In this document: positions 33,870 through 40,893 of the stretch, piece after piece
How positions within the stretch are numbered: the stretch's first letter is position 1
Layout of the letters: the number at the start of each line of letters is the position of its first letter
NCBI GenBank assembly: GCA_022496205.1
Contig: WTXD01000039.1
Location: forward strand, 124,001 to 188,000
DNA from: Gloeopeniophorella convolvens
Taxonomy: Eukaryota > Basidiomycota > Agaricomycetes > Russulales
DNA: 64,000 nt
Reading direction: 5' to 3'
Notes under the pieces: generated by a model
The model's database searches: none
What the model was told of the DNA's origin: nothing
Seen by the model: only the letters and a program-made list of their open reading frames with translations
Program-made: the position numbers and the translations under genes

Positions 33870-33878
33870 CCTGAATCT
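33870..33878. repeat. Left target-site duplication (CCTGAATCT)
   Basis: A direct copy of CCTGAATCT at 40885-40893. If the adjoining A is counted as target rather than terminal sequence, the duplication is 10 bp (ACCTGAATCT). It directly abuts the first base of the left terminal repeat. Confidence 0.9.
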
Positions 33879-33961
33879 TAGTCTCGGTTCCAGACGTTGC
33901 AGAGCCGATCGATCTGCTCTGCAACGTCTGGGGTATTTCGTATAGGCGACCCCCCCTCGGT
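33879..33961 (+). repeat. Left composite terminal inverted repeat with internal palindrome
   Basis: The outer block TAGTCTCGGTT (33879-33889) is followed by a perfect 16-bp inverted repeat: arms 33890-33905 and 33916-33931, 10-nt loop. The arm reads CCAGACGTTGCAGAGC. An inner block with C7 matches the right end in inverted orientation. The palindrome could extrude as a hairpin or cruciform, or present two copies of a protein-binding site. Confidence 0.9.
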
Positions 33962-34153
33962 CAATCAGTCACACCTTGTCACACACCACGTGCCATCCCA
34001 TCAACTATCACATCAGCTGTATTGTACGACTGATTGTAAGCAGAATTGAGTAATTGATTTGGCCGACTTGGTGCGATCATTGTCGTCATCACTGCAACTA
34101 CTCTCTCGCGCGCGACTCACTTCTCGCAACTCGTTCCCCGTCCCAATCACACT

Positions 34154-36864
34154 ATGACTATCCCTACCAATGAACTTTCTGAATTCTTTCGAGATTTTTT
34201 TGGGAACGAGGACGAATATGACCCAGACGAGTCAGTGGACGAAGGCTTTGAGTCCTCCGGAGACAACACAGATGGTCCGGACCTTGACAAGCAGCCGCGC
34301 AACCCCCCTCTCCAACACGCGCAGCGTCCCAATCGCACCTTGGGTCCGGAAGCATGTGACAAGGTCAAAAAGGTGCTCAACTGCATCCACTCAGTGGGAT
34401 GGGATGTTGCCAAGTTCATGAACGCGCTCTGCTGGGGGGATGCGGAGTGCACTCGTGACAGTCAAGTACGCTTTGCACGCGCTGGATTCTTCAATAGCAC
34501 AGAGTTCCCTCGGCTACTAAAGCGTTGGTGGAAGCCTCCTAGTGGAAAAAAGAACAAAAGCAAGGTCCGCATGGAGGAGTTTGCCAGGATATGCGTGAAG
34601 CAGAAGATCCGTGCGGAGATGCGGAAAGTGGCTTCAATCCTCGCAAGGCCAGATGATCCGTTGTCTTTAGAGACACTCACATCACTCAATTTTGTGGAGC
34701 TCTCGAAAGACCTTGCCAAAGCTGCTCCTGTGCTGTGGAACGTCCTTCACGAGGCAGCTTGGAGCACGTCACAGGCAAAACGGAACACCGATAAGTCACC
34801 GGACAACGTGAGTGCTTCGTTACTATTCGGATTGTGTTGCGTTGATGCTGATATAACGATTTGTGCTCTAGGTCATCATGAATGTCATTAGTATGTTGTC
34901 ATACACGCGATCCCACCACTCTTGCCGCCTTGCGGCTCTTTGGGCGATTTACCTCAAGTCATGTGGCCTTTCGTCGAGGGCATTTGATGCCGTGCATGCA
35001 ACCGGGCTCGCGATGAGCATTCGATGGACCAACGATGCATTCAAAACGATCTCGGATAGGCAGATGGAGAGTGCGGTTGTGGCAGTCAAACAGCGCACAT
35101 GGACCCTGTCGTATGACAACGTGAACATCCCGAAACGCGTATTTTCGATGAGAACAACAAACCAAAACCAGTTCTATAGCGCGTGCGCAGCTACGCTGTG
35201 GGTTCTCCCAGAATATGTCCATTTGCCTGAAGATCTGGGTCATGAGTTTCGGGTGGCGCGGAGGGAGGGAGCGACAGAGCCATTCAACATCGAGGACCTC
35301 CTAGATGGTGATGCACAAGACGCTGCGGACGCTCGTATTGCAGCAAGCGCAAAGCATCGAATTTTGCGGTTCCTACTTGACGCGCCGGCATTCGAGTCCT
35401 ATTCCCACAAAGATCACCCATCCTGTCGCCACCACCCCCACTGATCAGCTCCCGGCTGGTCCGGAACACACTACCAAGCAGTTCATGTTGTATACCGCAG
35501 ATATCGAGGAAGCAAGCTATGACGGTAATCGGCAGGCGGTGGAGGAATGGCTTCGTCAGCTGGGTCTCAGCGGAGAGAAGCTTCGCCTGGCAACCGACTT
35601 CGTCATCGCGTTTATTGGAGACCAACTCACAGTGGAGCGTCTTCGGGGTCTCATGCGGTACCGGCATAAGGACATCAATGGGTACGAACGTCTTGACTGG
35701 GTCCTTCCTGTTTTCGGTTGGCTGCACCTCCTCTTTGCGTTCGCGGCATCAATCTTGGGGCAATATGAAGGGACGTCAGCAGGATACGGCTTGCGGCGTG
35801 CATTTGACTTGCTGAAGCGCAAGGGCTTGCAGAAGACGCTCACGAAGGGCCCTTTCTGGCATCACCTCGATGAGGCACTCTGGCACATTGGTGAGGCTCA
35901 CATTCTCGCCTGTTGGACGAGAACAGCAGGCCCAAACGCTACGGATGTGTCACCACTCCTCGTAAAGTCCCCAGAGGAGCTGCTAGCAATAGCAAGCGAC
36001 ATCTACGAGCAATGCGCGTCACGTCGAGCCCTCTATCGGATGAAGAACGCACCCGCACATACCATGGATGAAGTCCGATTCCGTTCAACTATGTTTCTTA
36101 CCGACGTGCTTCCTTACTTCGACCTTCGAGAAGCCATCAAAACGGGCGATGTTGGACGCATGGAGGATCTCTTACCGATCCTCCTTTTCCGATTTGCGGG
36201 GACAAGCCACCCCAAGTACTCAATCGAAATTCTGGAGTTGATTCAAGGTCTCAAACGAGAGTGGCCACAAGAGATCAAGTGAGCAAACATCTCGCCATGC
36301 TACAAGATCAGATCTTGCTTACTAACTTCGACCCAGGGACCTTGTGCGGCGGCACTGCTGGTTGATAAACCGCTCCGGAAAGCGTGATGGGTTCTTGCCA
36401 ACAGACCAGGCCCAGGAGCAGAACATAAAAGACATCAAAGTAAGCCAATGGTTCATGCGCAGAGTGGAAACGCTGAACGACGGATTCGGCAGGTTACATA
36501 CCGGTCAATCGGGCCGGCGGCAACGCTCGAACAACTCTCAAAAATCTCACCTGGAATCCCCGTTTTCCGCGCAGTTGCTGCTCACATGAAGTCCCAGCAC
36601 ACTCTGATCCTCTCTCGTGGTACGGCACATACTGTGCCGGGAAAAGATGCAGATGTGAAGAAGATGATGGAGGTGATTCTGGACGAAGGGTGGTTCTCAC
36701 ATGAAGATGGACGCACCATTGCGCACGCGAAAGATCACGCTGACGATGCAATCAATACTGGGGTTAATTCACTTACCCAGGGCCTGATGAAAAGATGGTG
36801 GAACGGTCGGAACTTCCCGCGCGAGAGCTCTGAGCGATGGGCGGCAACACGAAATGAAGCATAG
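34154..36864 (+). CDS. DUF6589-family protein, candidate transposase of the element, with one apparent frameshift
   Basis: About 845 aa if the break is ignored. DUF6589 is a large uncharacterised family abundant in Agaricomycetes; I assign it from the pattern of family-like segments: HSVGWDVAKFMNALCW near the N-terminus, QLPAGPEHTTKQFMLYTADI, RHKDINGYERLDWVLPVFGWLHL, FWHHLDEALWHIGEA, DQAQEQNIKDIK and ISPGIPVFRAV. GT-AG introns lie at about 34808-34871, 36282-36336, 36439-36492. Between 35397 and 35400 the frame must shift by one base from DAPAFES to PTKITHPVATTP; no intron in phase could be found. This could be a mutation, a base-calling error, or a recoding site. The acidic N-terminus lies about 270 bp inside the left end. 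As the only non-helicase gene in the element it is the best transposase candidate; a DDE triad could not be assigned by eye. Confidence 0.85.
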
Positions 36865-36924
36865 TCCACAGACGAGCGCATGCTGGTTATGTTATAGATA
36901 ACTTACTGTACGGACATTAGCTAT

Positions 36925-39900
36925 CTAGAAGTGTGGCCGCTTGGGTATTCCAGCGTTGCGTGCGAGTACCGGTATCGTAGCGCGAGGAGGTGGAGCCCAC
37001 GCGGGCGGAGGCGGAAGAGCGTACATTGTCGGAGTCCTCGCGGGGGACTGTGGTGGCTGCGATGCGAAAATCATAGGCCTGGAAGAGGGCCGGGCCGGCG
37101 GAGTTTGAGTCGGCGCAAACTGCGCAGGCCAATACAGTGGCGCGGAGGGTGGCCCGGCACTTGCGGTGGGTGCAAGTAGGTGTTGGGGAGTCGGTGGTGG
37201 AGCGCGTGAGGGCGGAAATGGAGGCAGATCACCCCCGGGCGTATACTGGAGCTCATGCCCAGGAGGCTGCGAGACCGGGGTGTGGTAGTGTGATGCGCTC
37301 AGAGACTGGTGCTGCGCTGGTGTGGACAGATAATTGATGGGGGCTGCTTAACGGTTGGGCACGCATGAGGTTCGAGAATGAACTATGCAAATCGGACTGG
37401 AAACGCTCACCTTCATACATGCCTGAAGTCTGGTTAAACCCGGCGGCTTGACTCGCATTGACAGTGAGCCATGCTGGCACATCACAAAAGGCATCCTGAG
37501 AGATGTCCGTCGGCACGTCAGAGATCGCGGGTGGGGGTCCGAATTGGCTCACGCCAGCGCTGGGCCACGGCATGTCATGGAACGCATTCTGAGACATGTC
37601 CATTGGCACATCGGAGAACGCGAGCGAGGGACCGGCCTCACCCGTGCCGGGCCACTGGGACGCGTTATTGAACATGTCCTGGGCGACGTCCATCGACATG
37701 TCACGAAACGAGAGTGGGGAAGTGATGCGGGCAGGGGGCGTAAACGTAGAAGGAAGTACAGCCGGCACTGGCCCTGCGGCGTTAGCCCCTGCCTCGAGAG
37801 ACTGAGGGGTCGCGTGGGTGCCGCGGTAGGCTGGACGGGGCCGGGGGAGTTGGCGTCTTGACTGGATGGGGGTTGGCGGATCGTATTGGTGTTGGGAAAG
37901 CCCGCCGTGCGCAGGTAGCAGTGACGATGAAGCAACCTGAGAGCCGGCACTGACAGCCCCGCGGTACATAGGCCGAGGTGCAGGCCGAGGAGCGAGGGGT
38001 CTGAGCGCAGCCTGAGACCTCTGCCGCAGCCGCAGGAAACGAAGCAACAACATCAGCAAGCAAAACGCCTCGCGAGTACTAAGAATAAACATACCAGTTC
38101 CTGCAAAAAGTCAGCTTCCTTGATCAAGCGTTTCCTCTCGGCTTCCTGTTGTGCGGCCTTGCGCTTGTGTTCCGCCTTTTCTGCCTTTTCAGCGTCCTTT
38201 TGATTCTTCTTCTCCTCGCGCTCCTTTGCTTTCCTTTCATCCGATTCGCGTTTCTCTTGTTCACGGGCCTCCGCCTTGTCCTGTTTTTTTGCTTCTCGTT
38301 GCAAGCGATTGGCCTCATTTTTCTCTTCAAGACGTTGACGCTTAGCTGCCTCGTGCTTATCGGTTTCTACGGTGTGAACCTCGAGCACCTTTTTGAGGAC
38401 TTCCGCACCGTGCTTATTCAAGGCCCACCAATTGGCGGCCACGGGGCACTGTTCGGATTGCCTGACATCGTCAGGCTTCCTCCAGCGTGCGTATGTCGCA
38501 AATCCGTCCAATATGTCGTCGGACATCAAGCCTTCAGCGCCCCATGGCCGCGTTGAGTAACTTTTCAACCACGTACTTTGGCGCCATTCATTGAGGGCGT
38601 CTTTCACTGCCTCCAGCACCTCTCCTTGCCGCTTTGCGGGCCCAAGCGCCGTAACTTCGGGATCCTGGGGCTCACGCATTGCGCGTTTACCGGCAGCATT
38701 ACGAGTTTTGCTGGGAGTAGGGTGAGTGATGATGGAAAGGTTTCGGTCATGATGTGGGGTCGAAGGTCGGCTTGGAGGTGTGGGAGAATAAGAGGCGTCG
38801 AGGATAGATGCCATAGCGGCGCAGTTGTCGCAACACAGCCCAACAGGCGCTATGGTGTAAGCGGATGTCAGCACCGACTTCTGAGCACGGGAATATGCGA
38901 ACCCACGCTTCCGGGGCCCGGGATTGTTGAAGTGACTGTCTGCAACGTCGCGACGGCACCCAGTTGTCTCTATCCACTCGCGGAGACCATCTTCAATCTC
39001 CTTGCTGTAAATGACTTCACCCCCTTTGGGTGCGTTTTTCTTATTTTTCTCCTGAAAGACAGTTGGTTGAACCAGGAGGTATGCCCTCGCACGGCTGCCT
39101 CTGCCTCGTCCGGCTCGACCAGCGCGTTGCATCCACACAGAGAGTGACTTGGGCACCAAGAACTGCACAACAAACTCTACATTCGACAAGTCACATCCCT
39201 GTATATGAATCATAGGTGAGCCTACACAAGTACGCGGGTTACTGTCCCCACACACCATTCCAGCAGCCTCACTCGCAAGCAAGATGTCCAGAGCCCCACT
39301 ATTGAAGTCTTCAATCACAGTGGCTTTGCTCTCGTCCCCGCGCATTGCGTTATAGCATGCAACCCGACCCCGAAGGTGCTCCGGAAGGTGATCGCCAAAC
39401 CACCGCAACGCCTCCATCGACAAGGTGATGTCATCGAAGAATATGACACCATGCTCGAGCGTCTGTAAGGCTTCGGGGGTACTGTGATCTGGTAGGAGAA
39501 ACTTGAGCGCATCGAGGTCTGATTTTGCAGCTTTCATATGATGCACATGCCATTCAATGTTCGGGCGGTCGTTGCCTAGATTCAGGTGAAACGACGTATG
39601 TCGCTGCATATGCACTGATTTTCGGATTTCGACCAGGTCCGCTGGCGTTAGTGTTGCGGAGGTCACGAGGAATGGTATCCGATTCGAAACGATGGCACGC
39701 AACGTTCCAAGTTCACTGTATGCGCGCCGAAAGCTTTCGCCCCACTGTGTTATACAATGGGCCTCGTCTATCAAGAATGCCTTGATCCTTTGCCGTTTTG
39801 AAGGTGCCTCTAGTGCCGAGCGGAATTCAGGGTGCTTGAGGCACATCTCAGGAGAGGTGAGTATCACTTGGTACTTTCCATGCTTGAGGTCCTGGTGCGA

Positions 39901-40501
39901 ATCGCTCAGTCCTCACGTTCGCAGCCAATGGTTTGAAACTCACTTCTCGGACCTCGGCATTATATGACTCTTTGTTTACAGCCTTTGCTCGAAGACCGAC
40001 TTCCCGAAAACGCCGTTCCTACACACCGCACACCACGCCGCACCACCACCATATCGCATGGTAAGCCATTTGCCAGACGCGAGCCTCTGCGCTTACCTGA
40101 TCATTCTCAAGAGCAGTCAGAGGAGATATGATAATCATCTCCTTGTTCGGCTGATAGAATAGGGGCAAGAAGAAAGGTATGGTCTTCCCAGCCCCAGTAG
40201 CAGCAATGACTTCACAGTCGATGCCCAGGATCAAACACTCAGCAATATCCAATTGCCAGCTCTCTGGCTTGATCCTGCCATCGGTTCGTCTCAAACACTC
40301 CTCTTCCATCTTCTTCCGAGCTGCAGCTGAGTCATACTTGTCGCCAGCGTTCCGCTGCGCGTCGTTGAGCAATTTCGACGACCGGGTTCGCTCGGTTCGA
40401 TGATTCACCAAGGGTTGCGCGTCTCGTGGTGCCGTGTGGGCTTGCACTTGGCCTTTTTTTGATTGAGCCCTACCTTTTGTAGAAGGGCCGGGCTTAGGCA
40501 T
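36925..40501 (-). CDS. RecQ-like superfamily 2 DNA helicase of the transposon
   Basis: About 1,080 aa. The first true ATG is at 40501. N-terminal basic region, then RecQ motif 0 (KPESWQLDIAECLILG), Walker A ATGAGKT, DEAHC in FLIDEAHCITQWG, SAT in LVTSATLTP, motif IV GVIFFDD, motif V ASEAAGMGCDLSNVEFVVQF, and motif VI QRAGRAGRG. Then a zinc-type Cys cluster (GCRRDV...GLCCDNCA), a Lys/Glu-rich coiled coil (38110-38350), and a long Pro/Ser-rich tail with three repeats of the type SFRDMSMDVAQDMFNNA. An intron around 37325-37413 (donor after MYEG) links to a final proline-rich exon ending at 36925. All helicase motifs are intact, so ATP-driven 3'-5' unwinding is expected. It could process transposon ends or replication intermediates. 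The neighbouring gene is tail-to-tail and only about 60 bp away. Confidence 0.9.
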
Positions 40502-40686
40502 TGAGGATCTGCAGCGGCGCGGGACAGTCTCAGGTTGCGGAGGCAGAGTCCATACATGTTGATCCCGCAAATTTGCTTAGTCCCAAACAGAGATTTACGC
40601 AACAATGCGTGCGTAACCACCGCGTTCTGAGACGCGTCTGGTCATGTGCACGGCACAGAGAACTGATGTAAGCGTCACGCATTGTC

Positions 40687-40884
40687 ACCGATGGGGGGGT
40701 CCTATACGAAGTGCACCAGACCTTCACAGAGCGGAATTACCATGGCTTTTCTCAGGAACGAGCTCAGATTCAAAAGCAGATCATCCAATCACTGTCCCCG
40801 TCCATCGATCCCATCAAACAGATACCCCCGTAGGGGGTCAAAGCCATGGTGATTCCGCTCTGTGAAGGTCTGGGAACGAGACTA
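40687..40884 (-). repeat. Right composite terminal inverted repeat with long internal palindrome
   Basis: Mirror image of the left end but larger. From the outside: TAGTCTCGTTC (40884-40874), then an inverted repeat with 34-nt arms, 40716-40749 and 40840-40873, with one mismatch, separated by a 90-nt loop. The inner block (40687-40710) has G7. The arm begins CCAGACCTTCACAGAGC, close to the left arm. The loop holds a small secondary hairpin, ACCCCCGTAGGGGGT (40824-40838). Confidence 0.9.
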
Positions 40885-40893
40885 CCTGAATCT
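40885..40893. repeat. Right target-site duplication (CCTGAATCT)
   Basis: Identical to 33870-33878. It directly follows the terminal CGAGACTA. Confidence 0.9.

Follow-up and report, generated by a model that had tools for sequence, protein, structure and literature searches.

A DNA transposon pairing a DUF6589 gene with a RecQ-like helicase gene in the crust fungus Gloeopeniophorella convolvens

We analyzed a 64,000-nucleotide stretch of the Gloeopeniophorella convolvens genome (Russulales; contig WTXD01000039.1, positions 124,001 to 188,000; hereafter, the window) and found that it harbors a complete DNA transposon of 7,006 bp (33879..40884), as delimited by its ends, its target duplication, a second copy and an empty allele. 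It carries genes for DUF6589 and a RecQ-like helicase, its TAGTCTCG ends bound a unit that has transposed and left 9-bp target duplications, and it is most likely a recently active cut-and-paste transposon of the helicase-encoding (AcademH) type. Our analysis further suggests that DUF6589, a large mushroom family of unknown function, does the DNA cutting in such elements and travels with a DNA-unwinding enzyme.

Movement of the element as a unit

The element starts at position 33879 with TAGTCTCGGTTCCAGAC and finishes at 40884 with GTCTGGGAACGAGACTA, and comparison of its ends gave a left terminal inverted repeat, TAGTCTCG (33879..33886, + strand), and a right one that reads CGAGACTA on the + strand (40877..40884, − strand). 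In the 36.7-Mb assembly, a right-end 17-mer had 63 matches with at most one mismatch (45 exact) versus 0 for the reversed pattern, and a left-end 15-mer had 54 (32 exact) versus 1 for the reversed control; these counts rule out chance inverted ends. The 9-mer CCTGAATCT flanks the element on both sides (33870..33878 and 40885..40893) as a perfect duplication, the chance agreement of two given 9-mers being ~5e-6. Between the ends, the DUF6589 gene (34154..36864, + strand) and the helicase gene (38053..40501, − strand) converge, tail to tail. An earlier reading of this stretch (the original prediction) had described related inverted ends, two convergent genes between them and a perfect 9-bp target duplication, all of which hold; its option of a 10-bp duplication is ruled out, because the additional A is already accounted for as the final base of the terminal repeat, and duplications of other copies are also exactly 9 bp.

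An empty site was sought with a 232-base query in which a single copy of the 9-mer links the two flanks. Contig C49 matched the whole query (100% as rounded, with at least one mismatch visible on closer alignment), and it aligned with the left flank of the window at 98.8% over 1,624 bp and with the right flank at 99.1% over 1,608 bp. Both flanks join in C49 exactly at a single CCTGAATCT, and the element itself yielded only chance-length matches there. Since the flanks are intact and joined without the element, the other, insertion-free allele seems to be present in the assembly, which rules out a fixed host locus. Three contig pairs (C49/C323, C72/C68 and C292/C224) are 98.8 to 99.7% identical, insertion flanks included, and both haplotypes therefore seem to be represented, in part, in the 36.7-Mb assembly.

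A second 7,006-bp copy lies at C290:141032-148037, differs from the window copy at 25 positions (19 substitutions and 6 single-base gaps) and has its own duplication, TGGAGGAGG. It lies within the right-end palindrome of a different DUF6589-RecQ element (C290:135010-148.3 kb), the uninterrupted site of which is kept in three sister copies (C163, C161 and C251) at 99-100%. Thus, the search for other copies and empty sites that the original prediction had proposed found both in this genome. The DUF6589 reading frame is interrupted near 35.4 kb in the window as assembled, and at other places in the C290 copy, so that neither has an open full frame; these breaks may be due to assembly error. Although structurally complete, the window copy may thus fail to yield the full-length protein. 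Despite the broken frames, the 99.6% identity of the two copies and the polymorphic insertion point to recent movement.

Across the genome, a DNA search placed the window element at six places at ~99-100% (C55 and C88 apparently being halves of one insertion), together with further long copies that are ~68-76% identical to it and many short ones; copies ~0.2 kb long share its ends. An exact 9-bp duplication was present at 20 of the 23 independent insertions for which both ends could be placed. Ten of these 20 are gene-bearing (the window, C290 [two families], C55+C88, C57, C168, C235, C161, C163 and C251) and ten are shorter, ~0.2-2.8 kb (C360, C157, C345, C367, C72/C68, C22/C223, C349, C235:32.7 kb, C321/C379 and C350). 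No exact 9-bp duplication was seen at the other three (C354, C1:1689252 and C342:102773-108129), and 12 target duplications compared with one another had no obvious common motif. For this count, C55+C88 was joined across an assembly gap through the common 9-mer TCGTCATCC and taken as one insertion, duplicates at the same target were merged (C68 with C72, C223 with C22, and C379 with C321), and C235:285 kb was scored as duplication-bearing despite a 16-bp repeat of its right end. Of eight facing pairs of right-type ends, chosen for closeness, seven had duplications, representing five independent sites, and one, at C342, had none; at least one further facing pair, C223:91243-91431, lies outside these eight. 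The 20/23 count also leaves aside copies with one recognized end (C372/C237, C292/C224, C1:1259, C404, C112, C90/C73, C375, C2:620907 and C195) and long copies with one usable end (C46, C68:539878, C374 and C342:81006). The proposal that DUF6589 is carried by a mobile element is thus borne out, in that it moves with a unit bounded by defined ends.

DUF6589 as a candidate transposase and its helicase partner

The DUF6589 gene has four proposed exons (34154-34807, 34872-36278, 36337-36439 and 36493-36864), the limits of which were read by eye from splice signals, and its main open reading frame (ORF) matches DUF6589 (PF20231) with an E-value of 2.8e-85 (286.9 bits versus a Pfam gathering cut-off of 27). 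Alignments across three deep lineages of DUF6589 proteins revealed the conserved acidic D-D-E triad of DDE/D transposases, the first Asp of which precedes the start of the Pfam model. AlphaFold models of two DUF6589 proteins present the RNase-H-like fold of these enzymes, and the family is predicted to be closest in fold to Hermes, the P element transposase and RAG1, which were the best matches of the models. More specifically, DDE transposases or recombinases fill the leading PDB ranks of the two models (1-18 for one, 1-26 for the other), at moderate Z. Hermes was the best VIA-align match, with 7-10% identity, in a comparison of matched ranges rather than superposed catalytic residues, and the P element transposase was the top Foldseek match (E 0.0024). 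The triad and the transposase-like predicted fold support the original prediction that DUF6589 is the best candidate transposase, and the structural check it had suggested likewise returned models resembling DDE transposases; we conclude that DUF6589 is very probably the transposase.

No BFVD fold matched DUF6589 at E ≤ 0.001, the best being a hAT-like protein of Pandoravirus (E 0.0018), and Pfam gave no hAT or P domain at E ≤ 1 and no named transposase domain. Sequence searches of solved structures returned one weak match for one ORF (E 0.06) and five for profile A2 (best E 0.11), all to unrelated proteins, and none of 161 pattern matches in viral contigs was confirmed as a relative. Three homologue searches yielded at least 349 DUF6589 relatives (the best 120 of 173, all 109, and the best 120 of 251), those giving 173 and 109 having scored the 7,996 candidates with the most words in common. 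Among these matches, the named organisms all appear to be Agaricomycetes, and animal AcademH proteins do not appear; the closest relative of the window protein, among the best 120 of 173, stands at 97%.

The helicase gene encodes a RecQ-like superfamily II protein in at least two exons, with a start codon and exons read by eye and a possible further exon down to ~37253. The protein has DEAD/Helicase_C domains and PDB matches to BLM, RECQ5 and WRN, and its main ORF matches the NCBIfam RecQ family (recQ_fam, E 1.2e-26). It differs from these RecQ helicases in scoring below the NCBIfam cut-off (93.5 versus 219.8 bits), in its long C-terminal extension and in sitting in a transposon.

A DUF6589 profile matched this genome in 34 segments, which make up 21 loci. 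RecQ neighbors, a check put forward in the original prediction, accompany 16 loci (C323, C290 twice, C163, C161, C251, C342 twice, C374, C168, C235, C57, C2, C334, C356 and C332), the helicase being convergent and within ~5 kb at each (match to the window helicase, E 2.1e-6 or better). Two further loci, C68 and C88, are cut by contig ends, the other half of C88 probably being C55, which carries a helicase; at C4, C10 and C105, the window helicase as query found no match. C334 and C356 may be alleles or recent copies, since the 3.6 kb retrieved from each showed 99.9% identity and no boundary. The helicases at C2, C332, C342:142 kb, C334 and C356 are only ~28-33% identical to that of the window, and the DUF6589-RecQ pairing therefore looks old.

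DUF6589 occurs in many "hypothetical proteins" of mushroom genomes. If it is a DDE transposase, those proteins become transposon annotations, and some of the RecQ-like genes of mushroom genomes are accounted for; moreover, this recently active element, with its empty allele on record, is a system in which to ask what role a helicase has in DNA transposition. In the literature collection searched, to which these results apply, "DUF6589" retrieved no paper, and the sole match to PF20231 or IPR046496 (presumably the InterPro accession paired with it) was an unrelated optics paper. No link between DUF6589 and transposase was found in the literature listings or in the excerpts consulted of PMC10799480, PMC10045372, PMC8290104, PMC12210899, PMC12730594, PMC10294476 and PMC10817607.

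Subterminal palindromes, proposed mechanism and affiliation

A palindrome begins 11 bases from each tip of the element. The left one (33890..33931) has 21-nt arms that are 95% complementary, with no loop, and the right one has 34-nt arms (inner, 40716..40749; outer, 40840..40873) around 90 bases. In single-strand DNA folding, each whole palindrome gave a z of −7.8, with 0/200 shuffles as stable; incomplete stretches lacking part of the inner arm or lacking the outer arm gave −0.6 and +0.9, respectively. The compared lineages carry such palindromes with differing sequences. For arms hand-picked from the computed folds, the right arms of four lineages paired at 0.87-1.00 within a lineage versus 0.41-0.88 across lineages (outer arm with the other's inner arm), and the left arms of five lineages at 0.82-0.95 versus 0.50-0.90, a weaker contrast. 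Judged from these sequences, the arms seem to change together, pairing persisting as the sequence diverges. Three causes would each fit: selection may favor a hairpin or cruciform, it may favor two inverted binding sites, or gene conversion may act between the arms.

AcademH is a lineage reportedly attributable to Kojima 2020. Excerpts of PMC10045372 and PMC10799480 describe it as the helicase-encoding lineage of the Academ superfamily; the former gives target duplications of 9 or 10 bp for AcademH and 3 or 4 bp for AcademX, a difference tied there to helicase versus nuclease, and the latter reports that Basidiomycota, Ascomycota and Mucoromycota harbor AcademH at low copy number. Putative non-autonomous Academ elements have been noted in another mushroom (excerpts of PMC8290104). 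The window element resembles AcademH, as these excerpts portray it, in its superfamily II helicase gene, its duplication of exactly 9 bp (20/23 insertions) and low copy number in a basidiomycete; it departs from the AcademH descriptions consulted in its end palindromes and its link to DUF6589. It does not conform to AcademX, its duplications being 9 bp, and no nuclease family was found among its seven scanned ORFs. Membership is defined by homology to the Academ-type DDD/E transposase; as judged by duplication and helicase, the element probably belongs to AcademH, and the Academ-like affiliation in the original prediction draws its support from the same two features.

In such a cut-and-paste transposon, DUF6589 would bind and pair the element ends, cut them and insert them into target DNA cut with a stagger of 9 bp, and short copies could be mobilized by it in trans. 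The RecQ helicase might act on strand-open or palindromic ends, either while they are being cleaved or when the gaps at donor and target are repaired.

Several other explanations were weighed. DUF6589-RecQ elements might form a superfamily of their own that acquired the helicase and 9-bp duplications independently of Academ; Pfam naming DUF6589 but no transposase domain, and end palindromes with conserved pairing that go unmentioned in the AcademH descriptions consulted, would accord with this, but a basidiomycete element with a helicase and 9-bp duplications fits published AcademH (excerpts of PMC10045372 and PMC10799480), and we regard the independent origin as unlikely. A bolder form of it, in which a mushroom superfamily has palindromic ends selected for pairing, RecQ opens or extrudes the palindromes and DUF6589 cuts the resulting hairpin or cruciform ends in a helicase-dependent cut-and-paste reaction, is speculative and appears doubtful.

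An origin from a hAT- or P-like element that gained a helicase would agree with the best structural matches, Hermes (hAT) and the Drosophila P element (a DDE strand transferase), and with the hAT-like top viral match. However, hAT and P elements have 8-bp target duplications and are not known to carry a helicase gene, sequence identity to DUF6589 is only 7-10% for Hermes and ~10% for the P element, and neither Pfam domain was detected at E ≤ 1, making this origin very improbable. Helitrons are not known to have terminal inverted repeats or target duplications, both of which are present here. We give least credence, next to none, to the idea that DUF6589 and RecQ are captured host-gene cargo of a transposase encoded elsewhere that moves anything with these ends. 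Many short copies do share the ends and, where both ends are placed, mostly the same duplication length; against this, families whose DNA identity is ~70% or lower all carry this gene pair inside ends of one kind, and DUF6589 itself combines the triad with a predicted fold like that of transposases.

Irregular copies

Some copies are irregular. At C235 near 285.1 kb, GGCGGGAACGAGACTA, the last 16 bp of the right end, occurs in tandem ahead of the 9-bp duplication, looking as if two ends had joined or an end had slipped. At C342:102773-108129, facing right-type ends flank a RecQ-like gene with no DUF6589 match and no target duplication, possibly a helicase-only derivative or a nested pair. C22:26489-28060 (1.6 kb) and C223:168859-171633 (2.8 kb) each have two right-type ends at apparently the same target site (GTACCCCCT / AGGGGGTAC), and are probably alleles that differ by an internal change. 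Finally, the DUF6589-RecQ copies at C46 near 565.4 kb and C374 near 118 kb break, as judged by eye, into similar DNA, where another mobile element has perhaps inserted.
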